Source: Agromyces sp. 3263 (GTDB lineage Bacteria > Actinomycetota > Actinomycetes > Actinomycetales > Microbacteriaceae). Taken from it: a stretch of DNA of 64,000 bases. The translations under genes and the position numbers were made by a program. The notes below the pieces were generated by a model. The model was not told where the DNA came from, made no database searches, and was given only the letters and a program-made list of their open reading frames with translations. Location of the stretch: the NCBI RefSeq assembly GCF_031456545.1, contig NZ_JAVDUV010000001.1:2542001-2606000 (forward strand), written 5' to 3'. Positions 47,094 through 64,000 of this stretch are shown piece by piece. Numbering within the stretch: position 1 is the stretch's first letter; each line of letters starts with the position of its first letter.

Positions 47094-47241
47094 TTGCGCT
47101 CCCAGACCCACCATGCCTTCATATTGCGGTCGGCTTCGCGTGCCGGGGTTCCAGACCTCGTGCATCCGCAAACGTCTGAGGGGTTCCACTCTCCGCTACC
47201 GACAGTGAACCGGCCCGACGGGGCCGATGGAGGTTATTCAC
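47094..47241 (+). other. 5' leader of rpoBC
   Basis: The 346 bp between the spermidine-synthase-like gene and rpoB hold the promoter and about 148 nt of untranslated leader. I see no convincing small gene here. A short hairpin, CGGCCC/GGGCCG, lies just before the ribosome binding site and could affect translation. A GGTTATACC palindrome near 47018 lies upstream of the promoter. Confidence 0.5.
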
Positions 47242-50200
47242 TTGGCTGCTGCGCGCAACGCGACCACGCCCACCCCCAAGAACGGACGCGGTGCAAGCCG
47301 CCTCTCGTTCGCAAAGGTCACCGACACCCTCACCGTGCCCGACCTGCTCGCACTCCAGACGGAGAGCTTCGACTGGCTGGTCGGCAACGACGCGTGGAAG
47401 GCACGCGTCGCCGAGGCCGAGGAGGCCGGCCGCCAGGACCTGCCCGAGCACACGGGCCTCGAGGAGATCTTCGAGGAGATCTCCCCGATCGAGGACCTCG
47501 GCGAGACCATGCAGCTCTCGTTCACCAACCCTGAGCTCGAGCCGCCGAAGTACACGATCGACGAGTGCAAGGAGAAGGGCAAGACCTACTCCGCCCCGCT
47601 CTACGTGAACGCCGAGTTCATGAACCACCTCACCGGTGAGATCAAGACGCAGACCGTCTTCATGGGCGACTTCCCGCTCATGACCCCCAAGGGCACCTTC
47701 GTCATCAACGGCACCGAGCGTGTCGTCGTGTCGCAGCTCGTCCGCTCGCCCGGCGTCTACTTCGAGCGCACCCCCGAGAAGACCTCCGACAAGGACATCT
47801 ACTCGGCTCGCGTCATCCCGAGCCGTGGTGCATGGCTCGAGTTCGAGATCGACAAGCGCGACCAGGTCGGCGTGCGCATCGACCGCAAGCGCAAGCAGTC
47901 CGTGACCGTCTTCCTCAAGGCCCTCGGCCTCACGAGCGAGGAGATCCTCGAGGAGTTCGCCGGCTACGAGTCGATCGCGCTCACCCTCGAGAAGGACAAC
48001 ATCCTCACCAAGGAGGAGGCGCTCAAGGACATCTACCGGAAGCTCCGTCCGGGCGAGCAGGTCGCCGCCGAGGCCGCGCGTGCGCTCCTCGACAACTTCT
48101 ACTTCAACCCGAAGCGCTACGACCTCGCCAAGGTCGGCCGGTACAAGATCAACAACAAGCTGGGCCTCGAGGCTCCGCTGACCGACTCGGTGCTCACGGT
48201 GCAGGACATCGTCGCCACGATCAAGTACCTCGTCGCCCTCCACGACGAGCGCACCACCATCGCGGGTCGCCGCGGCGGCAAGGCGGTCGACATCCGCCTC
48301 GACGTCGACGACATCGACAACTTCGGCAACCGCCGCATCCGCGCGGTCGGCGAGCTCATCCAGAACCAGGTGCGCACCGGCCTCAGCCGCATGGAGCGCG
48401 TCGTTCGCGAGCGCATGACCACGCAGGACATCGAGGCGATCACCCCGCAGACCCTGATCAACGTGCGACCCGTCGTCGCCGCGATCAAGGAGTTCTTCGG
48501 CACCTCGCAGCTGTCGCAGTTCATGGACCAGAACAACCCGCTCGCGGGCCTGACGCACAAGCGTCGCCTGAGCGCGCTCGGCCCCGGCGGCCTCTCGCGC
48601 GACCGCGCGGGCGTCGAGGTCCGAGACGTCCACCCGTCGCACTACGGCCGCATGTGCCCGATCGAGACCCCTGAAGGCCCGAACATCGGCCTGATCGGCT
48701 CGCTCGCGTCGTTCGCGCGCATCAACTCGTTCGGCTTCATCGAGACGCCGTACCGCAAGGTCGTCTCGGGCAAGGTCACCGAGCAGATCGACTACCTCAC
48801 GGCGATGGAGGAGGACGACTACATCGTCGCCCAGGCCAACGCGCCGCTGAAGGCCGACGGCCACTTCCAGGAGGAGCGCGTCCTCGCCCGCAAGAAGGGC
48901 GGCGAGGTCGACCTGTTCCCCGCCGACGAGATCGGCTACATGGACGTCTCGCCGCGCCAGATGGTGTCGGTGGCGACCTCGCTCATCCCGTTCCTCGAGC
49001 ACGACGACGCGAACCGCGCCCTCATGGGTGCGAACATGCAGCGCCAGGCGGTGCCGCTGCTCCGCAGCGACTCGCCGTTCGTGGGCACCGGCATGGAGGG
49101 CTACGCGGCCGTCGACGCCGGTGACGTGATCACCGCCGACAAGGCGGGCGTCGTCACCGAGGTGTCGGCCGACTCGGTCACCGTGCAGCTCGACGAGGGC
49201 GGCACGCAGACCTACTACCTGCGCAAGTTCGACCGCTCCAACCAGGGCACGTCGTACAACAACCGCGTGGTGGTCTCGGCAGGCGAGCGCATCGAGGCCG
49301 GCGAGGTCATCGCCGACGGTCCCGCGACCGACAACGGCGAGCTCGCGCTCGGCAAGAACCTCCTCGTGGCGTTCATGCCGTGGGAGGGTCACAACTTCGA
49401 GGACGCGATCATCCTCAGCCAGAACCTCGTGAAGGACGACGTGCTCTCGTCGATCCACATCGAGGAGTACGAGGTCGACGCGCGCGACACGAAGCTCGGC
49501 AAGGAGGAGATCACCCGTGACCTCCCCAACGTCAGCCCCGACCTGCTGGCCGACCTCGACGAGCGCGGCATCATCCGCATCGGCGCCGAGGTCCGCCCCG
49601 GCGACATCCTCGTCGGCAAGGTCACGCCGAAGGGCGAGACCGAGCTCTCGGCCGAGGAGCGCCTGCTCCGCGCGATCTTCAACGAGAAGAGCCGCGAGGT
49701 GCGCGACACGTCCCTGAAGGTGCCTCACGGCGAGCAGGGCACGATCATCGGCGTGAAGGTGTTCGACTCGCAGGACGGCGACGACGAGCTCGGCTCGGGC
49801 GTCAACCAGCGCGTGGTCGTCTACATCGCCCAGAAGCGCAAGATCACCGAGGGCGACAAGCTCGCGGGCCGTCACGGCAACAAGGGCGTCATCTCCAAGA
49901 TCCTCCCGGTCGAGGACATGCCGTTCCTGGCCGACGGAACCCCCGTCGACGTCATCCTGAACCCGCTGGGCATCCCCGGCCGAATGAACTTCGGCCAGGT
50001 GCTCGAGACGCACCTCGGATGGGTCGCCAAGCAGGGCTGGAAGGTCGACGGCAACCCGGCGTGGGCCAAGAAGCTCCCGAAGGACGCGCACGAGGCCGCC
50101 CCCGGCACCAAGGTCGCGACCCCGGTGTTCGACGGCGCCCTCGAGGAGGAGATCGCGGGTCTGCTCGACTCGACGCTCCCCAACCGCGACGGCGAGCGCC

Positions 50201-50733
50201 TCATCGACTCGACCGGCAAGACGCAGCTCTTCGACGGTCGCTCCGGCGAGCCCTTCCCGTACCCGGTCTCGGTCGGCTACATGTACATCCTGAAGCTGCA
50301 CCACCTCGTGGACGACAAGATCCACGCGCGCTCCACCGGCCCGTACTCGATGATCACCCAGCAGCCGCTCGGTGGGAAGGCGCAGTTCGGTGGCCAGCGC
50401 TTCGGTGAGATGGAGGTGTGGGCCCTCGAGGCCTACGGCGCCGCCTACGCGCTGCAGGAGCTCCTCACGATCAAGTCCGACGACATCCTCGGCCGCGTCA
50501 AGGTGTACGAGGCGATCGTCAAGGGCGAGAACATCCAGGAGCCCGGCATCCCCGAGTCCTTCAAGGTGCTCATGAAGGAGATGCAGTCGCTCTGCCTGAA
50601 CGTCGAGGTCCTCTCGGCCGACGGCACCGCGGTCTCGCTGCGAGACACCGATGACGAGGCCTTCCGCGCAGCGGAGGAGCTCGGCATCAACATCTCCGCG
50701 CGCTTCGAGTCGTCGAACATCGACGAGATCTGA
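47242..50733 (+). CDS. rpoB: DNA-directed RNA polymerase beta subunit
   Basis: The 1163-residue subunit of RNA polymerase starts at TTG 47242 ([20 protein letters not shown]), 8 nt behind GGAGG at 47229-47233. The in-frame ATG at 47227 overlaps that site and is rejected. Core parts are visible: [20 protein letters not shown], the rifampicin cluster [20 protein letters not shown] (from residue 420), [17 protein letters not shown], and the C-terminal [20 protein letters not shown]. Residues aligned with E. coli Q513, D516, H526 and S531 are kept. Position S522 is Ala435. First gene of rpoBC. Confidence 0.99.
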
Positions 50734-50774: not shown

Positions 50775-54671
<3,897 letters not shown>

Positions 54672-54868: not shown

Positions 54869-56005
54869 ATGAGCAGCACGACTCCCGGATCCGACCCGGA
54901 ACAGCGGCCCGACCCCGACGCGGCGGACGACCGCGCGGAGGTGGCAGGTCCTGGCGAGACCGACCCGGCGGACACGGCCGCGTACGAGCCCGCCGACGCG
55001 CTCACGGACCCCGCCGCGGCATCCGACACCCCTGAGGCCGACAACACGGCGATGACGTCGACGTCCGGGGCAGCCGCAGTCCCCGCCGATGCGGAGACGA
55101 CGACCGCCGCGGATGCCGACGCGACCGACGCCGAGCCCGACTACGTGTACGAGGCGGAGCCCGCCGCGGCCGAGCCCGCCGTGGTCGAACCCGTCGTCGC
55201 GGAGCCCGAGCCCGCGTCGACCAGCCGGCTCGACGAGGCCGTGGAACGCGCGAACGCCGTGCCCGTGGCATCCGACCCCGACGACGTCGGCGACCGCGAC
55301 GTGCCCGAGCCGATCGCTGCAGGCGCGGTGCGCCGCGAGACCTACGTGCCGTCCGCGACCGTCGCCACGGGAGCCGCAGGCGCCGCCACCCTCGCCCCCG
55401 AGCCCGACCTCGCGCCCCCGGCCGCCGTCGCGGCCCCCGCGCCGCAGACCGTGTACGTGCAGGCCCCCACGCCGCCGAAGGTCCGCAGCAACCGCGGATT
55501 CGGCGTGCTCGTGGCCCTGATCGGCACGGTCGTGTTCGCCCTGCTCTACGCCGGCGTGTCCTACCTGATCCTCCTCGGACGCGGGGACGTCGCCCAGGCG
55601 TCGTCGGTGTTCACGCAGTTCCTCCTCCAGCCCGTCTTCTGGGTGCCGGTGCTCGCCTGCTTCGTCGGCTTCGCCGTGCTCGCGCTGATCGTGAACCGCG
55701 GCCCGTGGTGGTGCTACGCGGTGTTCAGCCTGCTGGTCGGCGCATTCGTGTACTTCTCCTACATCGGCGCGGCGCTGCTCACGGTGCAGGCGTGGACCTT
55801 CACGCTCGACCAGGCGAACGACTTCGTCGCGCAGCGCTGGGTCGACCCGTTCGCGATCGTCGCTGGCATCATCGCCCTCGAGGTGCCGATCTGGTTCGGC
55901 GGCTGGATCGCGTCGCGCGGCCGCGCCGTCTCCGAGCGCAACCGCCTCGCCCGCGAGGCGTACGACCGGGAGCTCGCCGCAGGCCCGCAGCCGCAGCGCG
56001 CGTAG
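54869..56005 (+). CDS. Membrane protein with long acidic disordered N-terminus, type VII-like locus
   Basis: The 378-residue protein has about 205 N-terminal residues rich in Asp, Glu, Ala, Pro and Thr, without predicted fold. Four hydrophobic segments follow near residues 210-236, 252-277, 279-307 and 327-348 (for example FGVLVALIGTVVFALLYAGV). The C-terminus is a short charged helix. The N-terminus should face the cytoplasm. I do not recognise a family. It starts at ATG 54869 with a strong GGAAGGAG site, and lies between rpoC and the RDD-FHA gene on the same strand, so a link to the secretion-like locus is possible but unproven. Confidence 0.75.
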   Translation: MSSTTPGSDPEQRPDPDAADDRAEVAGPGETDPADTAAYEPADALTDPAAASDTPEADNTAMTSTSGAAAVPADAETTTAADADATDAEPDYVYEAEPAAAEPAVVEPVVAEPEPASTSRLDEAVERANAVPVASDPDDVGDRDVPEPIAAGAVRRETYVPSATVATGAAGAATLAPEPDLAPPAAVAAPAPQTVYVQAPTPPKVRSNRGFGVLVALIGTVVFALLYAGVSYLILLGRGDVAQASSVFTQFLLQPVFWVPVLACFVGFAVLALIVNRGPWWCYAVFSLLVGAFVYFSYIGAALLTVQAWTFTLDQANDFVAQRWVDPFAIVAGIIALEVPIWFGGWIASRGRAVSERNRLAREAYDRELAAGPQPQRA

Positions 56006-56032
56006 TCCGCCCGGTACGCTGCTGTGTCGGGG

Positions 56033-56050
56033 ATGGTGACCACTCCCCAT
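56033..56050. promoter_or_regulatory. Shared palindromic element, copy 1
   Basis: ATGGTGACCACTCCCCAT is an imperfect inverted repeat. It matches copy 2 at 61817-61834 at 15 of 18 positions. It lies 60 bp before the RDD-FHA start. A common regulator binding site is inferred. Confidence 0.55.
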
Positions 56051-56109
56051 CGACAGTGCAGCCCCGATGGCCTTGGGTGGCTCTGTACCCTGCGCACCCG
56101 AGGAGCGAT

Positions 56110-57303
56110 GTGAGCATCACGATGCACGTCGACGACGAGCCGACCCCGGGCATCGGTCCCGACGGACGTCCCGACCCCGCCTACGCGCGTGCGCTCGGTC
56201 TCGTGCCGGCGCCCGCGGGCCGGCGTGCGGCCGCGTTCGCGCTCGACGCGACCGTGTGGGTCGTGCTCGCGGTTCCGGCGGTCATCGGGTCCGTCATGCT
56301 CGCCGGCCTCGTGCTCGGCCAGGCGCAGCTGCCGGATGCCGCGGCGCTCACGCTCCCGCTCGTGCTCCTGGGCGTGGGCGAGCTCCTCCTCCTGGTGTTC
56401 GGACTCGTGCAGCTCGTCCTGCACGGGCGCAGGGGCGTGACGCTCGGCAAGGCGAGCCTCGGCATCCGCTCGGTGCGCGTGACCACCTTCGGCCCCGCCG
56501 GCTTCTGGCGCGTGGTGCTGCGGGTAGTCGTGCTGTGGGCGTCGTGGGTCGTGCTGCCGCTCGCCGGCCCGGCCGTCCTCTTCGCCTCGTCCGCTTGGGA
56601 CCCCGAGTCCCGTGGGCGCAGCTGGCTCGACCGCATCGGCCGCTGCTGGGCCGTCGACATCCGCAACGGGCTCGACCCCTTCGACGCCAAGGCGCTGCGG
56701 CATGCCCGCCGCCAGGTCGAGGCCGGCGCGCGCGAGCCCGAGGCACCCCTGCCGTCACTCGCCTCCGACCGGCCCGTCGGCGACGGACTCTTCATCCCAT
56801 CGGCACGGTCGAGCTCGGGCGTCGTGTCCGCATCGCCCTCGGAGGCCGGTGCCTGGGCCCCGCCGCCGCTCGTGCCGGTCGCCGACGCGGCGCCGGCGCC
56901 GGCTTCCCCGCGGAGTGCGGTCGTCGCCACCGCAGCCGCCGCCGCACCGGCTCTGCGCTCGGAGTTCGTGCTCGTCTTCGACGACGGCACCAGGCTCCCC
57001 GTCTCCGAGCCCGGGCTCCTCGGTCGGAGCCCGGCCGTCGCGCCGGGGGAGTCGCCCCTGCGACTGGTGCCCCTCGTCGACGAGAGCATGCGCATCTCCA
57101 AGACGCACGCGGCGTACGGCGTCGACGACGGCGCCCTCTGGGTGGCCGATCGCTCGTCGAAGAACGGCACCTCCATGGAGCTGCCCGACGGCACCTCCCG
57201 CCAGCTGACCCCGGGCGTCCGCACCCTGGTGCCGTCCGGCGCCACGGTGATGCTCGGCGGACGACGATTCACCGTGACCGTGGCACCCGGAGGCACTGCA
57301 TGA
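56110..57303 (+). CDS. RDD-domain membrane protein fused to a C-terminal FHA domain
   Basis: The 397-residue protein begins with an RDD domain: AGRRAAAFALDATVWVVLAV (37-56), a second helix ALTLPLVLLGVGELLLLVFG, the charged segment RRGVTLGKASLGIRSVRV and a last helix VVLRVVVLWASWVVLPLAG. A disordered Ala/Ser/Pro linker (about 215-285) leads to an FHA domain with PGLLGRSPA, MRISKTHAAYG and VADRSSKNGTSME, the phosphothreonine-binding loops. It may read kinase signals for the secretion apparatus. The start is GTG 56110 behind AGGAG; ATG 56122 is possible. Its stop overlaps the ATPase start (ATGA at 57300-57303). Confidence 0.85.
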   Translation: MSITMHVDDEPTPGIGPDGRPDPAYARALGLVPAPAGRRAAAFALDATVWVVLAVPAVIGSVMLAGLVLGQAQLPDAAALTLPLVLLGVGELLLLVFGLVQLVLHGRRGVTLGKASLGIRSVRVTTFGPAGFWRVVLRVVVLWASWVVLPLAGPAVLFASSAWDPESRGRSWLDRIGRCWAVDIRNGLDPFDAKALRHARRQVEAGAREPEAPLPSLASDRPVGDGLFIPSARSSSGVVSASPSEAGAWAPPPLVPVADAAPAPASPRSAVVATAAAAAPALRSEFVLVFDDGTRLPVSEPGLLGRSPAVAPGESPLRLVPLVDESMRISKTHAAYGVDDGALWVADRSSKNGTSMELPDGTSRQLTPGVRTLVPSGATVMLGGRRFTVTVAPGGTA

Positions 57304-60300
57304 AGCTCAAGCTCGGACTCCGGCGACACAGCGGGTCGCCGGTGGACGTGATGGTCACCGCCGACTCGACCGCCACGGTGCAGGACATCGCGCACGCGAT
57401 CCTGACGAACGACCCCCAGACGGCACGACTCGGCGGAGCCGCGGGCGTCGGCGTGGTGACGCTCGCGGTCGCGCCGCCGACGTCGACCGAGCCCACGATG
57501 CTGGACCCCGAGCTGCCGATCGGGGATGCGCCGATCGGATCCGGATTCAATGCGGCCGTCGTGCCGCACAGCCCCCGTTCCACTCGCGCGGCGGAGGGCG
57601 CGGCAGCCGTGATGCGGGTGCTCGGTGGGCCCGACGCCGGCCGCGAGTTCCCGCTCCGTCGGGGCAACAGCGTCATCGGTCGGGCGGCGGGCGTCGACGT
57701 GCTGCTCAACGATCCGCTCGTCTCCAAGCGGCATGCCCGGATCGAGGTGGATCAGACGGTCGAGCTCGTCGACCTCAACTCCGCGAACGGCCTCATCGTC
57801 GACGGCGGCCTCGTGCAGCGGGTGCGGGTCTCACCCGGGCAGGTGGTGACCATCGGCGACAGCGAGGTCTCGTTCACGCTCGTCGCGGGCACGGATCATG
57901 CACCGGATCCCGTGCTCGAGCGCGGCGGTGCCCTCATGTTCAACCGGTCGCCGCGCGTCGAGGCCCGCTATCCCGGCATGGAGCACAAGCATCCCGTCGT
58001 GCCGAGCGAGGCGGAGCCGAGGCTCTTCCCCTGGCCCATGATCGTCGCACCCATGATGCTCGGGCTGGCCATGTTCTTCATCACCCGGAACCCGTTCTCG
58101 CTGTCGATCGTCGCCATGTCGCCGCTGATGATGTTCGGCAACTTCATCGGCCAGCGCACCCAGCAGGGGAAGAAGCTGCGGCTGGAGGTCGACACCTTCG
58201 AGGAGCAGCTCGAAGAGCTGGAGGAGACCCTGGCTCGTGAGACGCTCGTCGAGCGCGAGCGCCGGCATGCCGAGGCACCCGCGGTGGCGACGGTCTACGA
58301 GGCGGCCATGCGGCTCGGCCCGCTCCTCTGGACGCGACGCCCCGAGCACTGGAACTTCCTCGCCCTGCGCCTGGGGATCGGCGCGGCAAGGAGCCGCAAC
58401 ACCATCCAGGCGTCCAACGAGCAGAAGGGCATCGTGCGATATGCCCGACAGGTGGATGCGCTGCGCCGACGGCACGAGACGATCGACGAGGTGCCGCTCG
58501 TCGAGATGCTGCCGCACGCGGGCGCCATCGGCATCGCCGGCCCCCGCCATCTCGCGGCGGACGTGCTTCGAGGCATCGGGATCCAGATCTTCGGACTGCA
58601 CGCGCCGAACGAGCTGATCACCGCCGCCATCGTCGGTCCGGGCTGGGCGAAGGAACTGGAGTGGATGAAGTGGCTCCCGCACACCACGAGCCCTCGCTCG
58701 CCCTTCGCCGACCTCGCTCTCGCCGACAGCCAGTCGGCCGGGACCGCCCTGCTCAACGGCCTCGAGGAGGCCATCCTCGGGCAACTGTCGGGAACGCCGA
58801 GCCGGCGCGGCCCCCTCCGCGAGGAGGAGACCACGATGGCGCTCGGGGCCAGGGTCGGCGAAGGCAACGGGAGCGAGCTCGAGGGCGATCTGGCACTGGT
58901 GCTCATCGCCTCGAACGATGCACCCGTCGACCGGCCGCGGCTCACCCAGGTCATCGAACGCGGCGCCGACGCGGGCATCTTCACGGTGTTCCTCGCCCCG
59001 ACCGTCGAGTCGCTCCCTGCCGCGTGCCGCACCTACATCGATGCCACCGAGGGCTTGGACCGAGCTCGCGTGGGCGTCGTCCGGGCCGGCGAGGAGCACG
59101 AGGGCATCGTCGTGGAAGGCGTCTCCAACGAATACGCCGAGGTGTTCGCGAAGCGGCTCGCGCCCGTCGTCGATTCGAGTTCGGTCACCGCCGACTCGAG
59201 CGACCTGCCGCCCAGCGTGTCCCTGCTGAAGCTCCTCGGCCCCGACCTCGCCACGCAGCCCACCGCGGCGATCGAGCGCTGGCGGCAGAACAACTCGATC
59301 CTCGACCGGTCACGCGGTCCTCGTCCGCGCCTGAAGCGGGCCGGCACGCTGAAGGCGTTCGTCGGGCAGGGGAGCCCCGACGCGATGTCGCTCGACCTGC
59401 GCACGCAGGGTCCGCACGCCCTGGTCGGCGGAACCACCGGCTCCGGCAAGTCGGAGTTCCTCCAGGCCTGGGTGCTCGGCATGGCCGCCGAGTACAGCCC
59501 CGATCGCGTGACCTTCCTCTTCGTCGACTACAAGGGCGGATCGGCGTTCGCCGACTGCGTAGAGCTGCCGCACTGCGTGGGGCTCGTGACCGACCTGAGT
59601 CCCCATCTGGTGCGCCGTGCGCTCACGAGCCTGCGCGCCGAGCTGCACCACCGCGAGCACCTCTTCAATCGCAAGAAGGCGAAGGATCTCCTCGAGCTCG
59701 AGAAGCGGCAGGATCCAGAGACGCCGCCGGCCCTGGTCCTCGTCATCGACGAGTTCGCCGCCTTGGCGGGCGAGGTCCCCGAGTTCGTGGACGGCGTCGT
59801 CGACATCGCCCAGCGCGGGCGGTCGCTGGGCATCCACCTGATTATGGCGACGCAGCGGCCGGCGGGCGTGATCAAGGACAACCTGCGTGCGAACACCAAC
59901 CTCCGGGTGGCGCTGCGGATGGCGGATGTCTCCGACTCCAACGATGTCGTGGGCGACCCCGTCGCCGGCACCTTCGATCCGTCCATCCCCGGCCGCGGGA
60001 TCGCCAAGACCGGCCCGGGGCGGCTCGTCCCGTTCCAGTCGGGCTACGCCGGCGGCTGGACGAGCGATGCGCCCGCGGTGGCCCAGGCGAAGGTGGCCGA
60101 ACTCCGGTTCGGCTCGACGCAGGTCTGGGAGTCGGCCACCGACGACGAACCCGACACCCACGAGGGCGACCTCGGGCCGAACGACCAGCGGCGCATCGTC
60201 GCGAATCTCGTCGCGGCCGCATCCGCCGCGGGCGTCCCCGTGCCGCGGCGGCCATGGCTCGACGACCTGAAGACGACGGTCGACCTGCGCGAACTGCCAC

Positions 60301-61790
60301 TCGACGGTGACGGGCGCATCCCGCTCGGGCTCGCCGACATCCCCGAGCGGCAGGCGCAGGAGCCGGTGTTCTTCGAGCCCGACACCGACGGCCATCTCCT
60401 CGTCTACGGCACGAGCGGCGCGGGCAAGACCGCCGCCCTCCGCACGATCGCGACGGCGGTGGGCGCGGTGCCCGAGGCCGGCACCGCGACGGTCTACGGG
60501 CTCGACTTCGGCACGGGTTCGCTTCGCTCGATCGAGGCGCTCCCGCACGTGGGATCCGTGGTCGCCGGCGACGACGTCGAACGGGTGCAGCGGATGCTTC
60601 GCACGATCCGGGGCATGCTCGACGACCGTGCGAAGCGGTTCTCGGCTGTGAACGCGGGAAGCCTCAGCGAGTACCGAGAACTGGCAGGCCGGCCGCGAGA
60701 GCCGCGGATCCTCCTGCTCATCGACGGATTCGGGACGTTCAAGCAGGAATGGGAGAGCACGGCGGCGCGCTCCGCGTTCTACAACATCTTCATGCGGGTG
60801 CTCGGCGAGGGCCGACCCCTCGGCGTCCACGCCGTCGTGAGCGCAGACCGGTATGGCGCCGTACCCACCGCCGTCAGCGCCAACGTCAGCCGCCGCATCG
60901 TTCTGCGAATGTCCGATGAGGGCGCCTATTCGATCCTCGGCGCGCCGAAGGACGTGCTCAACGAGCGGAGCGCTCCCGGGCGCGCGATCGTCGACGGGTT
61001 CGAGACACAGCTCGCCGTCATGGGCGGAACGGCCAACGTCGCCCAGCAGACCACCGCGCTCCAGTCGTTCGGTGCCGAGCTCCGCGCGCGCGGCGCCGTC
61101 GAGGCAGGGGAGATCGGTGCCCTGCCGACCGAGTTGGACATCACCGCACTTCCCGATGCCGTGGACGGCCAGCCCGTCCTCGGCGTCTCGGAGGACATCC
61201 TCGGCCCGCGAGGTTTCGAGCCCGTGGGCACCTTCGTCGTCACGGGGCCGCCGCGAAGCGGGAAGTCGACGGCCTTGCGGGCGCTCGCCACCTCCATGGC
61301 ACGGTTCGATCCCGACGCGAAGTTCTTCCACTTCGGTGGTCGACGGGCGGTGCTCCGGGACTTCCGCCCGTGGGTCCGGTCCGCGGGGAGCGTCGAGGAC
61401 GCCCGCTCACTCGCCAAGGAGCTCACGGGCATCGTCGGCGACGAGACCGTTCCGGGTCGGATCGTGATCGTGATCGAGAATGTCACGGAGTTCGCCGACT
61501 CCGACGCCGAGCGTCCGCTCAAGGAGCTCTTCCAGGCGATCAACCGGAGCGATCACTTCCTCATGGGCGACGGAGACGTGAGCCAGCTCGGGTCCGGATA
61601 CGGCTTCATCGGGGACTTCAAGGGAGGCCGTCGCGGCATCGTGCTGAAGCCCGACACGTACGACGGCGATGCGGTCTTCAAGGTCCCGTTCCCGCGGGTG
61701 CAGCGGCACGAGTTCCCCGAGGGTCGCGGCCTGTTCGTGGAGAACGGACGCGCCCTGACCGTGCAGCTGCCGTTCGTCGCCGCCGACTGA
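57300..61790 (+). CDS. Type VII secretion ATPase, EssC/EccC-like, with FHA domain
   Basis: The 1496-residue protein has an N-terminal beta-rich domain (1-95), an FHA domain (105-195: NSVIGRAAGVDVLLN, SKRHARIEV, NSANGLIVDGG), two membrane helices (244-285) and three FtsK/SpoIIIE-type ATPase domains. The first has Walker A VGGTTGSGKS (near 710) and Walker B LVLVIDEFAAL (near 815). The second has VYGTSGAGKT (near 1040) with Walker B LLLIDGFG, and the third VTGPPRSGKST (near 1315) with IVIVIENV, so only the first keeps the catalytic Glu. FHA-containing EssC is typical of Bacillota; actinobacterial EccC usually lacks FHA. It should power export of WXG100-type proteins encoded next to it. Confidence 0.92.
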   Translation: MKLKLGLRRHSGSPVDVMVTADSTATVQDIAHAILTNDPQTARLGGAAGVGVVTLAVAPPTSTEPTMLDPELPIGDAPIGSGFNAAVVPHSPRSTRAAEGAAAVMRVLGGPDAGREFPLRRGNSVIGRAAGVDVLLNDPLVSKRHARIEVDQTVELVDLNSANGLIVDGGLVQRVRVSPGQVVTIGDSEVSFTLVAGTDHAPDPVLERGGALMFNRSPRVEARYPGMEHKHPVVPSEAEPRLFPWPMIVAPMMLGLAMFFITRNPFSLSIVAMSPLMMFGNFIGQRTQQGKKLRLEVDTFEEQLEELEETLARETLVERERRHAEAPAVATVYEAAMRLGPLLWTRRPEHWNFLALRLGIGAARSRNTIQASNEQKGIVRYARQVDALRRRHETIDEVPLVEMLPHAGAIGIAGPRHLAADVLRGIGIQIFGLHAPNELITAAIVGPGWAKELEWMKWLPHTTSPRSPFADLALADSQSAGTALLNGLEEAILGQLSGTPSRRGPLREEETTMALGARVGEGNGSELEGDLALVLIASNDAPVDRPRLTQVIERGADAGIFTVFLAPTVESLPAACRTYIDATEGLDRARVGVVRAGEEHEGIVVEGVSNEYAEVFAKRLAPVVDSSSVTADSSDLPPSVSLLKLLGPDLATQPTAAIERWRQNNSILDRSRGPRPRLKRAGTLKAFVGQGSPDAMSLDLRTQGPHALVGGTTGSGKSEFLQAWVLGMAAEYSPDRVTFLFVDYKGGSAFADCVELPHCVGLVTDLSPHLVRRALTSLRAELHHREHLFNRKKAKDLLELEKRQDPETPPALVLVIDEFAALAGEVPEFVDGVVDIAQRGRSLGIHLIMATQRPAGVIKDNLRANTNLRVALRMADVSDSNDVVGDPVAGTFDPSIPGRGIAKTGPGRLVPFQSGYAGGWTSDAPAVAQAKVAELRFGSTQVWESATDDEPDTHEGDLGPNDQRRIVANLVAAASAAGVPVPRRPWLDDLKTTVDLRELPLDGDGRIPLGLADIPERQAQEPVFFEPDTDGHLLVYGTSGAGKTAALRTIATAVGAVPEAGTATVYGLDFGTGSLRSIEALPHVGSVVAGDDVERVQRMLRTIRGMLDDRAKRFSAVNAGSLSEYRELAGRPREPRILLLIDGFGTFKQEWESTAARSAFYNIFMRVLGEGRPLGVHAVVSADRYGAVPTAVSANVSRRIVLRMSDEGAYSILGAPKDVLNERSAPGRAIVDGFETQLAVMGGTANVAQQTTALQSFGAELRARGAVEAGEIGALPTELDITALPDAVDGQPVLGVSEDILGPRGFEPVGTFVVTGPPRSGKSTALRALATSMARFDPDAKFFHFGGRRAVLRDFRPWVRSAGSVEDARSLAKELTGIVGDETVPGRIVIVIENVTEFADSDAERPLKELFQAINRSDHFLMGDGDVSQLGSGYGFIGDFKGGRRGIVLKPDTYDGDAVFKVPFPRVQRHEFPEGRGLFVENGRALTVQLPFVAAD

Positions 61791-61816
61791 CGCGTCGGTC
61801 GGCGCGCGACCCGGGG

Positions 61817-61834
61817 GTGGGGACCGCTCCCCAT
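61817..61834. promoter_or_regulatory. Shared palindromic element, copy 2
   Basis: GTGGGGACCGCTCCCCAT contains the stem TGGGGA/TCCCCA with loop CCGC. It matches copy 1 at 15 of 18 positions and abuts the -35 of the WXG100 promoter. Confidence 0.6.
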
Positions 61835-61863
61835 TGAGTACCGGCTCGACCCCCCAATACGGT
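61834..61863 (+). promoter_or_regulatory. Promoter of the WXG100 gene
   Basis: TTGAGT (61834-61839) and TACGGT (61858-61863) are 18 bp apart, 50 bp before the start codon. The palindromic element overlaps the -35 by one base. Confidence 0.5.
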
Positions 61864-61913
61864 GGAACCCGGATGGTCCGCAGGGGGCCGAAATCAGAAG
61901 AGAAAGGCCGATA

Positions 61914-62201
61914 ATGGCTGACTTCAAGGCGACGTACTCCGAGATGGAAGCGATGGCGGGCAAGCTCGAACAGGGCCGCGAGGACATCGCCGACATCCTC
62001 CGCCAGCTCAAGCAGGGCGTCGACACGCTGCTCGGCGACGACTTCAAGACCGAGCACGCCTCGGGCAAGTTCGGCGAGGGCTACACGGAGCTCACGACCG
62101 GACTCGAGTCGGCGATCGACGGCATCCGCGACATGGGCGACTCGCTGCGCAAGATGCAGCAGGCGATCAAGGACACCGACGCCGCGCTCGCCGGGCAGTA
62201 G
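61914..62201 (+). CDS. WXG100-family type VII secretion substrate
   Basis: The 95-residue protein has the size and two-helix hairpin of ESAT-6/WXG100 proteins: helix 1 SEMEAMAGKLEQGREDIADIL, turn, helix 2 FGEGYTELTTGLESAIDGIR with a coiled end. The usual Trp-x-Gly turn is replaced by GDDFKT (41-46). It lacks a signal peptide and would be exported by the ATPase upstream. GAAAGG before ATG 61914 is a moderate ribosome binding site. It is preceded by its own promoter, so it can be made in excess over the ATPase, as typical for these substrates. Confidence 0.85.
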   Translation: MADFKATYSEMEAMAGKLEQGREDIADILRQLKQGVDTLLGDDFKTEHASGKFGEGYTELTTGLESAIDGIRDMGDSLRKMQQAIKDTDAALAGQ

Positions 62202-62209
62202 CACCCGCG

Positions 62210-62239
62210 CTCAGGGGAGGGCGTTCGCCCTCCCCTGAG
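62210..62239 (+). terminator. Strong intercistronic hairpin after the WXG100 gene
   Basis: A perfect 14-bp inverted repeat, 62210-62223 with 62226-62239 (CTCAGGGGAGGGCG and complement), has only TT between. In RNA a 12-13 bp stem with a 4-6 nt loop is likely. It sits 9 nt after the stop and before the next gene on the same strand, so partial termination or mRNA stabilisation is likely. Confidence 0.75.
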
Positions 62240-62286
62240 GCGTGGCACTCCCAGCACACCACCTTCTCGTCGAACAGGACATGGCA

Positions 62287-62613
62287 ATGGCCGATGTGTA
62301 CATCAAGGTCGATCACCTGAACCGGCTGAACGGCTCGCTCAAGCAGATCCTCGTGGAGTTCGCGGATGCCGCGAAGCGCACCGATGCGCTCCAGGACATG
62401 ATCGGCCGTCCCGACGGACGCAGCAGCCTCCGCGATCGGACGCACGAGTTCGAGGGTGGCTGGGACGACCGTCGGAACGCGCTGATCCAGAAGCTCAGCG
62501 GCATCCAGGCCGCAGTGGAGAGCACGTGCACCGGATGGCAGGACTTCGACCTCGAGGCGGCGGACAGCCTCAAACTGCAGGAGCACGACGGCGCGAACCT
62601 GCCGACGCGATGA
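62287..62613 (+). CDS. Small helical protein of the type VII-like locus
   Basis: The 108-residue protein has no signal peptide and is mostly helical: VYIKVDHLNRLNGSLKQILV, DAAKRTDALQDMIG, then FEGGWDDRRNALIQKLSGIQ and a C-terminal GWQDFDLEAADSL. The length, helix layout and a Trp at the turn resemble WXG100-like partner proteins, but there is no canonical WXG. ATG 62287 is preferred over 62281 because AGGA at 62276-62279 is then 7 nt away. It lies between the WXG100 gene and the 448-residue protein and may be a chaperone or co-substrate. Family not recognised. Confidence 0.7.
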   Translation: MADVYIKVDHLNRLNGSLKQILVEFADAAKRTDALQDMIGRPDGRSSLRDRTHEFEGGWDDRRNALIQKLSGIQAAVESTCTGWQDFDLEAADSLKLQEHDGANLPTR

Positions 62614-62626
62614 CGGGGAGTGGAAG

Positions 62627-63973
62627 ATGAGTGAACTGCGGACGCACCGCGGTCATCGGGTCGAGGTGCTCGAGGGCAACGCACAGGGGGTCATCGATCG
62701 GGGCAAGGAGATCGAGGACCTCGGGGAGCAGATGATCGGCGCGGCCGACGTCCTGCGTGAGATCGGCGACGGCGCCAGCGAAGAGCGAGGCCGTTCGATC
62801 GAGAAGATCCGCGACGAGGTCGGTGATGCGCATGCCGAGCTCCGCAAGGCGGGCGAACGCTACAAGCCGACCGGCACGGTCATGAAGACCTACGGGTCCA
62901 AGCTCGCCGACGTGCAGGCGGCCATGCGCACGATCGTGACCGATGCGCTGGACGCGAAGTCCACGCTCGACAGCAAGCGGCACGCGGCAGCGACCGCGGC
63001 GCAGACGGCGTCGAACGCGCCCGATCCCGAACCGACCGATCCCACGGCCCTCGAGCGTCAGCGTCGGCTCGAGGAGGCGGCGACCGACTCCCAGGGCGCG
63101 GTGCACAGCGCGGAGGCCGACCTCGACGCGCAGTTCGCCCTGTTCGATTCGCAGTGGGACACGTGGGACGAGGCGTACGAGACGGCGCTCCGTGGCATCA
63201 CGGATGCGACGGAGGGCAATGTCAGCGACGACTGGACCGACAACCTGGCGGGCGTGGTCGAGGTCGTGCTCGAGGTGCTCACGTGGGTCGGCGTGGCACT
63301 GGCGATCGCGGCCATCATCATCGGCGGCCCGTTCATCGCCGTCATCGCGGCCATCGTGGGCGTCATCGCGCTCATCGGCACGCTGTTCCTCTACGCCAAG
63401 GGCCGCAAGGGCCTCGGCGACGTCGCGTGGGCCGTGGTCGGGGTGCTGCCGTTCGGCAAGCTCGGCAAGCTCTTCCAATCCGGCAAGCGACTGACGGCGA
63501 TCAAGGAGTTCCTCGGCGGTCCCTACCTCGAGATCGCCACGCCGCTCCGGCGCATCACGGCGTTGCGCGGGCTGACGAATCCAGCCAGCCTCCGGGCGGG
63601 CGGCAACCTCGGAAGCCGCGCCGCCTCGGGCCTCGCCTCGCGGCTCGGCCGCGATTTCTCGGTCTTCCAGGGCGCAGGTCCGAAGAACATCCTCAATCGC
63701 ATCATCGGCGGGTCCAGCCGGGGGTACTCCCTCTCGATCGCGCAGAACTTCGCCAACCTCTCCGCGCACCACCAGCGCGTGATCACCCCGCACCTCGGAG
63801 CTCTCGCCGACGTCATCAGCGGCGGCGCGAAGCCCGTGGCGTTGAGCGAGGGCATCGCGAACTCGCTCGAGTTCGGAGTCAAGCGCGGCCGCATGGTGCT
63901 CGGCCGGGTCAACGAGATCAGCTCGTGGGGGGAACCCCAGCCGGTCGACACCTGGCGCGCCCAGCTCGTGTGA
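62627..63973 (+). CDS. Putative type VII-secreted or membrane helical protein with central hydrophobic segment
   Basis: The 448-residue protein has a long helical N-terminus (1-190; VEVLEGNAQGVIDRGKEIED and the coil ERGRSIEKIRDEVGDAHAEL) as found in LXG- or PPE-type secreted proteins. A hydrophobic central segment with two helices follows (about 209-262: VVLEVLTWVGVALAIAAIII and FIAVIAAIVGVIALIGTLFLY). The C-terminal 185 residues are Gly/Arg/Leu-rich and of unknown fold. No toxin motif is seen. GGGGAG before ATG 62627 is a good ribosome binding site, 13 bp after the previous stop. An export substrate or a membrane component is possible; I cannot decide. Confidence 0.7.
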   Translation: MSELRTHRGHRVEVLEGNAQGVIDRGKEIEDLGEQMIGAADVLREIGDGASEERGRSIEKIRDEVGDAHAELRKAGERYKPTGTVMKTYGSKLADVQAAMRTIVTDALDAKSTLDSKRHAAATAAQTASNAPDPEPTDPTALERQRRLEEAATDSQGAVHSAEADLDAQFALFDSQWDTWDEAYETALRGITDATEGNVSDDWTDNLAGVVEVVLEVLTWVGVALAIAAIIIGGPFIAVIAAIVGVIALIGTLFLYAKGRKGLGDVAWAVVGVLPFGKLGKLFQSGKRLTAIKEFLGGPYLEIATPLRRITALRGLTNPASLRAGGNLGSRAASGLASRLGRDFSVFQGAGPKNILNRIIGGSSRGYSLSIAQNFANLSAHHQRVITPHLGALADVISGGAKPVALSEGIANSLEFGVKRGRMVLGRVNEISSWGEPQPVDTWRAQLV

Positions 63974-64000
63974 CGGCACGACCGACCTCGATAAGGTGTT

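Follow-up and report, generated by a model that had tools for sequence, protein, structure and literature searches.

What kind of system lies between rpoC and rpsL in Agromyces sp. 3263, and why do some of its congeners carry a different system, or none, at the same site? To address this we analyzed a window of 64,000 nucleotides from the 4.07-Mb source genome (G000:C1:2542001-2606000; G labels denote genomes, L labels loci) together with the sequence that follows it, designating the genes between rpoC and rpsL by the letters A to K and the two kinds of secretion locus encountered there as type 1 (T1, the source kind) and type 2 (T2). The type VII-like system encoded by the locus is real and of an actinobacterial kind, and both its site and its cargo are swappable; our best reading is that it probably exports antibacterial cargo and is swapped via conserved flanks. 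The mobile unit is B to I, in which B, C and D are the machine genes and E-I a fast-evolving cargo cassette. A preliminary description drawn from the window's letters had proposed a type VII-like locus with an FHA-containing ATPase directly after rpoBC and had listed six genes in order (acidic membrane protein, RDD-FHA, FHA/triple-ATPase, WXG100-like, small and large helical proteins). All six, A to F, were recovered at the positions of Table 1 with high third-position GC, the ATPase, FHA and WXG100 domains were found, and the suspected continuation past the window proved real: the window shows the left part of a larger unit in which G, H and I follow F and which ends about 2 kb further on. 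The open-access literature yielded no account of an rpoC-rpsL secretion locus of Agromyces or other Microbacteriaceae; Pontimonas is described as lacking a type VII system in PMC6106888, and PMC5552033 lists type VII proteins, without detail, for a Rathayibacter genome.

The core of the machine is the ATPase C, in which Walker A motifs at residues 711, 1037 and 1316 mark three FtsK-like ATPase domains (FtsK_SpoIIIE, 5.9e-56 in Pfam), preceded by a predicted beta-grasp-like domain (residues 1-90), an FHA domain (103-194; 2.6e-13) and a transmembrane segment located by hydropathy (243-261). The phosphothreonine-binding motif of the FHA domain is intact (GR..SKRH..N within residues 127-164, with R128, S142, H145 and N163 invariant among 49 aligned sequences), and its closest folds, searched with one of the models that we predicted for the C N-terminus and for G, are GarA and OdhI. 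Pfam finds a single FHA domain in the N-terminus, and residues 1-90 are predicted as beta-beta-alpha-beta-(beta)-beta rather than all-beta. Here the element order of the AlphaFold2 model fits the ubiquitin fold (10-residue mean pLDDT confidence 92-97, falling to 72 at residues 41-50), and the top PDB profile match is a redesigned ubiquitin at E 1.5; weak ubiquitin-like Pfam matches occur in a few of 43 C-family members, among 18 weakly matched families, with YukD at 0.012 in one of the 43. Profile alignment with hhalign against three EsaB and two EccD proteins gave no support for a ubiquitin-like fold, and Foldseek and VIA searches with the N-terminal model listed FHA domains alone, so that residues 1-90 were barely tested by them.

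The neighboring machine protein B combines an RDD domain (PF06271, 3.7e-11) with an FHA match of 0.019 and 15.8 bits, under the Pfam cut-off of 20.7, in which the S-K-T-H ... N-G motif is recognizable by eye. Its best match in 22 other T1 genomes is 49-60% identical, and in T2 loci it is resembled solely in its FHA part, by a different protein. The WXG100-family protein D is present in 19/19 complete T1 loci; in L021 (G017) several near-identical D copies, some short or running into unknown bases, surround one cargo cassette and may reflect assembly trouble at repeats. Only one other WXG100 gene exceeds the cut-off in the source genome: it adjoins groEL (G000:C1:2801273-2801527; L242:10246-10536), retains W-x-G and a C-terminal YADAE (YxxxE), has no secretion ATPase alongside within the 20 kb read, and is a possible further substrate. 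B, C and D are best explained as a type VII-like machine, presumably for export, that is actinobacterial in kind and differs from both ESX and the Bacillota T7SSb.

The ATPase had initially been called Bacillota-type, a label that the comparisons do not support. The best NCBIfam model for C is indeed EssC (TIGR03928), yet the score of 524.7 bits is under the cut-off of 778.4, as are those for EccCa (334.1; cut-off 509.15) and EccCb (316.7; cut-off 346.55), and the N-terminus of C is predicted to hold one FHA domain, not two. In two trees with three named EccC and three named Bacillota EssC references, C falls outside both families, in a third, actinobacterial clade. In the 78-row tree some branches are long and some forks are left open, and the EccC rows do not form one side of a branch; a mixture-model tree of 29 of these 78 rows, author-chosen and unrooted, gives a value of 100 for EccC, for EssC and for the third group. 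One Actinomycetota ATPase (phy_L232) groups with EssC. Judged from sequence, C is thus neither EccC nor Bacillota EssC, and a Bacillota origin of the system was rejected; among named relatives, the closest match to C is 97% identical and comes from Agromyces humi. Neither canonical esx genes downstream nor a placement within EccC, the two observations that would have told against the preliminary description, was found.

The canonical accessory parts reported as unseen in the window were in part sought genome-wide, together with those of T7SSb. No EccB or EccD exceeds the cut-off genome-wide, with both models also below it in 14/14 control genomes and hence without a positive control; EssB (PF10140) has no match at E 1 in the source genome, the model being over cut-off in 1/14 controls; and the best EsaB (YukD, PF08817) match there reaches 13.8 bits against a cut-off of 27, again exceeded in 1/14 controls. 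Among ten locus proteins scanned with NCBIfam (J outside the scan) there is no Ecc or Ess accessory protein, including EsaA, EssA, EccE and mycosin, for which no genome-wide search was made, and Pfam detects neither a kinase (TsdD) nor an Ig domain (TsdI) in the locus. A minimal system had also been suggested as a possibility, and this fits the source locus; beside related ATPases elsewhere, however, further genes occur. In L033 and L143 kinase, PP2C and further FHA genes accompany the related ATPase, which in L143 (Agrococcus) directly follows transglutaminase, RDD, PP2C, FHA and kinase genes by Pfam; in L189 (Protaetiibacter) Ig-like, MoxR and DUF58 genes directly precede a T1-like ATPase; and the same run of gene sizes, compared by size only, precedes T1-like ATPases in L194, L200 and L203 (Salinibacterium, Microcella and Aeromicrobium loci). 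The presence of such genes beside the ATPase in relatives suggests that envelope and signaling partners in Agromyces may act in trans.

Among the described subtypes, T1 is most like T7SSd (Tsd) in the features compared. As T7SSd is presented in the parts of PMC11217815 (Garrett, Higginson and Palmer 2024) considered here, both systems are actinobacterial, with a WXG100 protein (TsdA in T7SSd) and an FHA-ATPase bearing an intact phosphothreonine motif, and both have no separate ubiquitin-like gene, the T7SSd lacking an identified ubiquitin-like component being a puzzle stated there; a kinase adjoins the ATPase in some T1 relatives. By the same parts of that source they differ in that TsdD and TsdI have no counterpart in the T1 locus, no T1 gene can be called TsdH, and the RDD-FHA protein and the E-F-G-H-I cassette are not among the parts described; the words Agromyces, Microbacterium and Micrococcales do not occur in its main text. 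T7SSb shares with T1 an FHA-bearing triple-ATPase, a single WXG100 gene in the cluster, and a Lap-plus-LXG arrangement resembled by the small partner E and the larger helical cargo F, whereas T1 departs from it in the subthreshold EssC score, the separate clade, the lack of EssB or EsaB over cut-off genome-wide, and one FHA domain after a predicted beta-grasp-like domain in place of the two N-terminal FHA domains of EssC. With T7SSa/ESX the common ground is three ATPase domains and the WXG100 family, against an ATPase beyond the EccC clade and no EccB or EccD over cut-off genome-wide.

The position of the locus recurs. Of 60 Agromyces genomes, searched with C as query at E <= 1e-90 and mapped over as much as about 16.5 kb downstream of rpoC, or less where the contig stops sooner, 29 carry T1, 25 carry T2 and 5 have an empty site (one of these with T1 remains), leaving G013 without an assigned state; no genome carries both types. 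T1 ATPases are 67-100% identical to C (29/60 genomes) and T2 ATPases 31-33% (24/60), the 25th T2 genome, G079, having been counted from the map, since its locus is cut by a contig end and was missed by the search. In each of the 45 genomes in which one contig holds both genes, the ATPase lies downstream of rpoC on the same strand, in 23/23 T1 and 22/22 T2 cases, at 2.5-18.2 kb. An ATPase of either related kind thus follows rpoC in 44 other Agromyces genomes, a pattern that is not chance. Loci of the same kind lie near rpsL in Microbacterium, Agrococcus, Humibacter and Leifsonia (L130, L137, L139, L143, L148, L183, L188, L191 and L195), which makes the str operon a repeated address in Microbacteriaceae.

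Comparison with empty sites defines the unit. A homologue of A follows rpoC at 5/5 empty sites and in 25/25 T2 genomes, so the acidic membrane protein, initially counted as a component, is not one. Three of the empty genomes (G011, G034 and G062) read rpoC-A-J-K-rpsL, with an extra gene between rpoC and A in G034; G065 reads rpoC-A-K-rpsL and G005 has A-J-K after an insert; and J-K-rpsL follows T2 in all ten T2 genomes checked on the far side. Being present with or without a secretion locus between them, A, J and K are site residents, and they were rejected as parts of the system. The boundaries are sharp: the empty site of G034 and the T1 locus of G070 align to 17 bp past the A stop and again from 17 bp before the J start, with 29 bp between these ends in G034 and 9,964 bp in G070. 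The gap from A to J (A to K in G065) measures 34 bp in G005, 63 in G034, 119 in G062 and 369 in G065, and those above 40 bp hold no trace of either system when compared with all T1 and T2 loci. In G011 (L077), about 0.5 kb of the 886-bp A-J gap matches H-I of G080 at 79% identity, with 85% identity over 171 bp to the source H; by its sequence, this is a lost type 1 system that decayed in place.

The two types also alternate between close relatives. On an rpoC tree of 59 genomes (G078, with a short rpoC, was left out) parsimony requires 10 changes between T1 and T2, or 15 with empty as a third state, against a shuffled mean of 22.7 and as low a value in 0/200 shuffles. Near neighbors that differ include G017 (T1) and G020/G033 (T2), G018 and G032, G007 and G019/G031, and the decayed G011 and G035. 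As close species differ in the system carried, whole systems with their cargo have apparently been exchanged, cartridge-like. Several further arrangements were observed around the site. An insert of at least 11 genes separates rpoC from A in seven genomes (G005, G014, G021, G025, G061, G072 and G077); in G005 (L071) it is a type IV pilus cluster by Pfam, with two PilB/PilT-type ATPases, pilin, prepilin peptidase and PilM, and the other six are likened to it by gene sizes only. Some genomes with an occupied rpoC site have a second T1-like ATPase (44% and 38%) at another place (L038 and L039 in G020 and G033, L040 in G028), and G005, with its empty rpoC site, has an EccC-grouping ATPase of 1,308 aa elsewhere (L058).

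Table 1. Genes of the rpoC-rpsL interval of Agromyces sp. 3263 and the genes before it. Positions are those of the window, continued beyond its end at 64,000; neighboring genes were called by a home-made codon-usage caller trained on the source region.
Gene	Product or feature	Position	Strand	Basis or remark
rpoB		47227-50733		directly upstream of locus
rpoC		50775-54671		directly upstream of locus
A	acidic protein, C-terminal transmembrane helices	54869-56005	+	site resident, outside secretion system
B	RDD membrane domain and C-terminal FHA domain, type 1 machine	56116-57303	+	Pfam
C	FHA/triple-ATPase, membrane ATPase, 1,496 aa	57300-61790	+	Pfam, structure prediction, hydropathy
D	WXG100-family protein	61914-62201	+	PF06013, 2.1e-11
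E	small helical protein, W in hinge	62242-62613 (123 aa), or from 62287 (108 aa)	+
F	448-aa helical protein, cargo candidate	62627-63973	+
G	predicted Mog1/PsbP/DcrB fold	63996-64607	+	window holds 63996-64000 only
H		64604-65167		past window
I	membrane protein	65164-66075		past window
J	DUF6121	66099-66581		past window
K		66592-67302		past window; then rpsL, rpsG, fusA, tuf

What the exchanged systems might carry is suggested most directly by T2, whose toxin domains, as annotated from sequence, are the best clue to the purpose of the site. In G004 the T2 locus comprises a lipoprotein-like gene (assigned by eye), an Ig-like gene (Big_9), the ATPase, a zinc-ribbon/FHA gene, three small WXG100-like genes and a 1,993-aa protein. 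Among 19 T2 cargo proteins, Pfam identifies Gln_amidase in 17, Ntox15 in 11, TNT in 5 and GH-E in 1; 15 of the 19 are truncated where the analyzed sequence stops, the four that are complete measure 1,455-1,993 aa, and the other six T2 genomes have no cargo above 600 aa within their stretches. One 1,993-aa T2 cargo (L044:12431-18409), with Ntox15, TNT and Gln_amidase in a row, we judged unusual.

The T1 cassette differs from its machine in tempo. Relative to the source proteins, C is 67-84% and D 64-94% identical in other T1 genomes (n=21 each), whereas F spans 29-78% (median 38) and G 23-76% (median 37; n=19 each); from the ranges of C and D against F, the machine is conserved and the cargo less so. 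Of 19 T1 loci complete from C to J/K, the source included, all carry C and D and 17 carry E-F-G: G018 has none of the three, though an H-like gene remains, and in G012 the small gene is of another kind and is accompanied by a 608-aa protein, likewise different. A second cassette in G008 encodes a 607-aa protein with a weak C-terminal alpha/beta-hydrolase match (0.0064) and a weak N-terminal T7SS_signal match (0.0048). F itself has a helical N-terminus, a variable C-terminus and a hydrophobic stretch at about residues 207-262 (a hairpin by eye, with the hydropathy peak at 237-255); a PDB sequence profile search returned nothing convincing, the best match being a designed coiled coil. Its family resembles LXG/T7SS_signal cargo in the helical N-terminus, the small partner gene and the variable C-terminus, and PF21725 (T7SS_signal) matches 5/43 aligned members (best 2e-10), though not F, which differs from such cargo in having no enzymatic toxin domain. 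Immediately before F stands a 70-130-aa gene in 89/89 F hits (E 1e-3, a few short or doubtful; ten loci repeating Agromyces genomes were dropped before linkage counts), and E may accordingly be a Lap/WXG100-like partner of F.

On the other side of F, G lies at most four genes away in 70/70 G hits, counted in loci of up to about 20 kb with a model built from genes beside F, and H-like genes lie near F in 54/56; conversely, G is among the next three genes in 61/77 testable F hits. The predicted G model adopts a Mog1/PsbP/DcrB fold. Foldseek gave a single match below 0.001 (Mog1, 1jhs, 7.6e-4), and VIA gave moderate Z scores for the predicted model: 3hlz 9.9, 3lyd 9.8, 1jhs 9.0 (4.4 Å over 148 residues), 6xrr 8.8 (5.0 Å over 118 residues) and 6xrf 8.0. 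A PDB sequence profile for G gave nothing convincing, and DUF1795 has no Pfam match at 0.01 among 68 G/H-like proteins; in the more distant L033, a WXG100-like cargo candidate is followed by a protein that sequence matches assign to LpqN/DcrB (2e-13 and 5e-6). Eag proteins hold the transmembrane helices of effectors in type VI systems. Like Eag proteins (DUF1795; the subject of PMC7773334 and PMC12881460) such as SciW and EagT6, G has this predicted fold and adjoins cargo with a hydrophobic stretch; unlike them it has no sequence match and comes from a Gram-positive host, and binding of transmembrane helices by G is a conjecture from these likenesses. On its modeled fold, G is a chaperone or immunity candidate.

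These observations lead us to the following model. C would act as the motor in the membrane, hexameric if EccC is a guide, and its FHA domain would receive a phospho-signal from a Ser/Thr kinase, presumably encoded in trans in Agromyces. E-F-G-H-I would form an exchangeable cargo module in which F is the exported protein, made together with its helical partner E; G would shield the hydrophobic stretch of F before export in an Eag-like manner, and H, I or both would protect the producer. Homologous recombination in the flanking rpoBC and rpsL-fusA genes, which are strongly conserved, would swap the unit in the gap between A and J for T2 or remove it. A more far-reaching version takes the gap as a docking site where complete, non-homologous type VII-like systems replace one another, with the essential and almost unvarying genes of transcription and translation serving as recombination arms; T1 would be a separate subtype whose ATPase has a built-in EsaB-like domain upstream of the phospho-reading FHA domain, and an Eag-like chaperone would bind the membrane-active T1 cargo. 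Taken whole, we think this unlikely. To our knowledge, no Eag-like chaperone is known outside type VI secretion.

Several results weigh against the model of an exchanged exporter of antibacterial cargo. The locus encodes no large envelope-spanning protein, D has KFGEGY in place of W-x-G and no C-terminal YxxxD/E signal in motif scans, and F yields neither a Pfam match at 0.01 nor a recognized toxic domain. Clustering of the T1 and T2 labels beyond chance on the rpoC tree implies that much of the inheritance is vertical, G011 shows decay in place rather than exchange, and in six T1 (G007, G021, G026, G061, G068 and G078) and two T2 genomes (G014 and G060) the ATPase is on a contig other than that of rpoC. 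The 16/77 F hits lacking a nearby G indicate that G is not always needed; orphan G copies elsewhere would be missed owing to the F-adjacent model and the locus length; two genomes hold orphan H-like genes; Pfam assigns the 68 G/H-like proteins to no known family, two weak single matches aside; and immunity proteins and lipoproteins, too, are found with the Mog1/DcrB fold. This last point bears on the role of G. Mog1-fold members Tsi3 and Tli4 neutralize type VI effectors, and by the same token G (and H) might be immunity proteins that neutralize F rather than chaperones, which we regard as a real but less likely possibility. Against it, no orphan G occurs among the 70 hits, the hydrophobic stretch of F is of the type bound by Eag proteins, and I is better placed as a membrane immunity candidate.

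Other accounts assign the whole system a different task, and a second ATPase of the source genome helps to judge them: a 966-aa protein (C1:192226-195123, in L055, G000:C1:183001-203000) whose gene neighbors, considered in this genome only, comprise Ig-like, MoxR, DUF58, transglutaminase and FHA genes, and which recurs in 57/60 Agromyces genomes (E <= 1e-100), including 4/5 with an empty rpoC site. T1 could be a partial system that exports nothing alone and relies on this 193-kb locus for envelope parts, namely the Ig-like, MoxR, DUF58 and transglutaminase proteins. All four families are indeed found there, and in L189 the first three directly precede the T1-type ATPase, with the same run of sizes in L194, L200 and L203 and a transglutaminase gene in L143, and the wide distribution of the 193-kb ATPase also suits such a role; still, that locus has its own, shorter ATPase and the sharing is read from gene content, and we consider borrowing rather unlikely. 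An improbable alternative is a type VII-like system for envelope upkeep or signaling, with D, E and F as exported wall or surface proteins and a position that ties expression to growth rate. It would suit an F without toxin domain, genes in a growth operon, and the kinase, PP2C and FHA genes beside the ATPases of L033 and L143, yet it is at odds with a system missing in 5/60 genomes and replaced by another in 25/60, with cargo as the fastest-changing part and with the toxin domains of T2 cargo, and the ATPase present in 57/60 genomes is a better fit for that role. That the locus is a DNA translocase unit with an incidental WXG100-like gene, as its FtsK/SpoIIIE-type domains might suggest, we can practically dismiss: three tandem ATPase domains are joined to FHA and transmembrane segments, the best models are EssC, EccCa and EccCb, D accompanies every complete T1 locus, and in none of the locus proteins does Pfam detect a domain for relaxase or replication functions.

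To a field based on mycobacteria and staphylococci the locus adds a type VII-like system that has a distinct set of parts and is present in many Microbacteriaceae. The natural series at one site, from T1 through T1 without E-F-G and T2 to decayed and empty states, makes the division between machine and cargo directly testable, and with it the way in which whole secretion systems pass between species. At the level of parts, we propose a possible built-in ubiquitin-like domain of the ATPase as an answer to the missing-component puzzle of T7SSd stated in PMC11217815, and the predicted fold of G as a structural connection from the effector chaperones of type VI systems to secretion in a Gram-positive host. 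For the bacteria themselves, exchange or loss of the unit at this site would mean that relatives differ in weapon and immunity.

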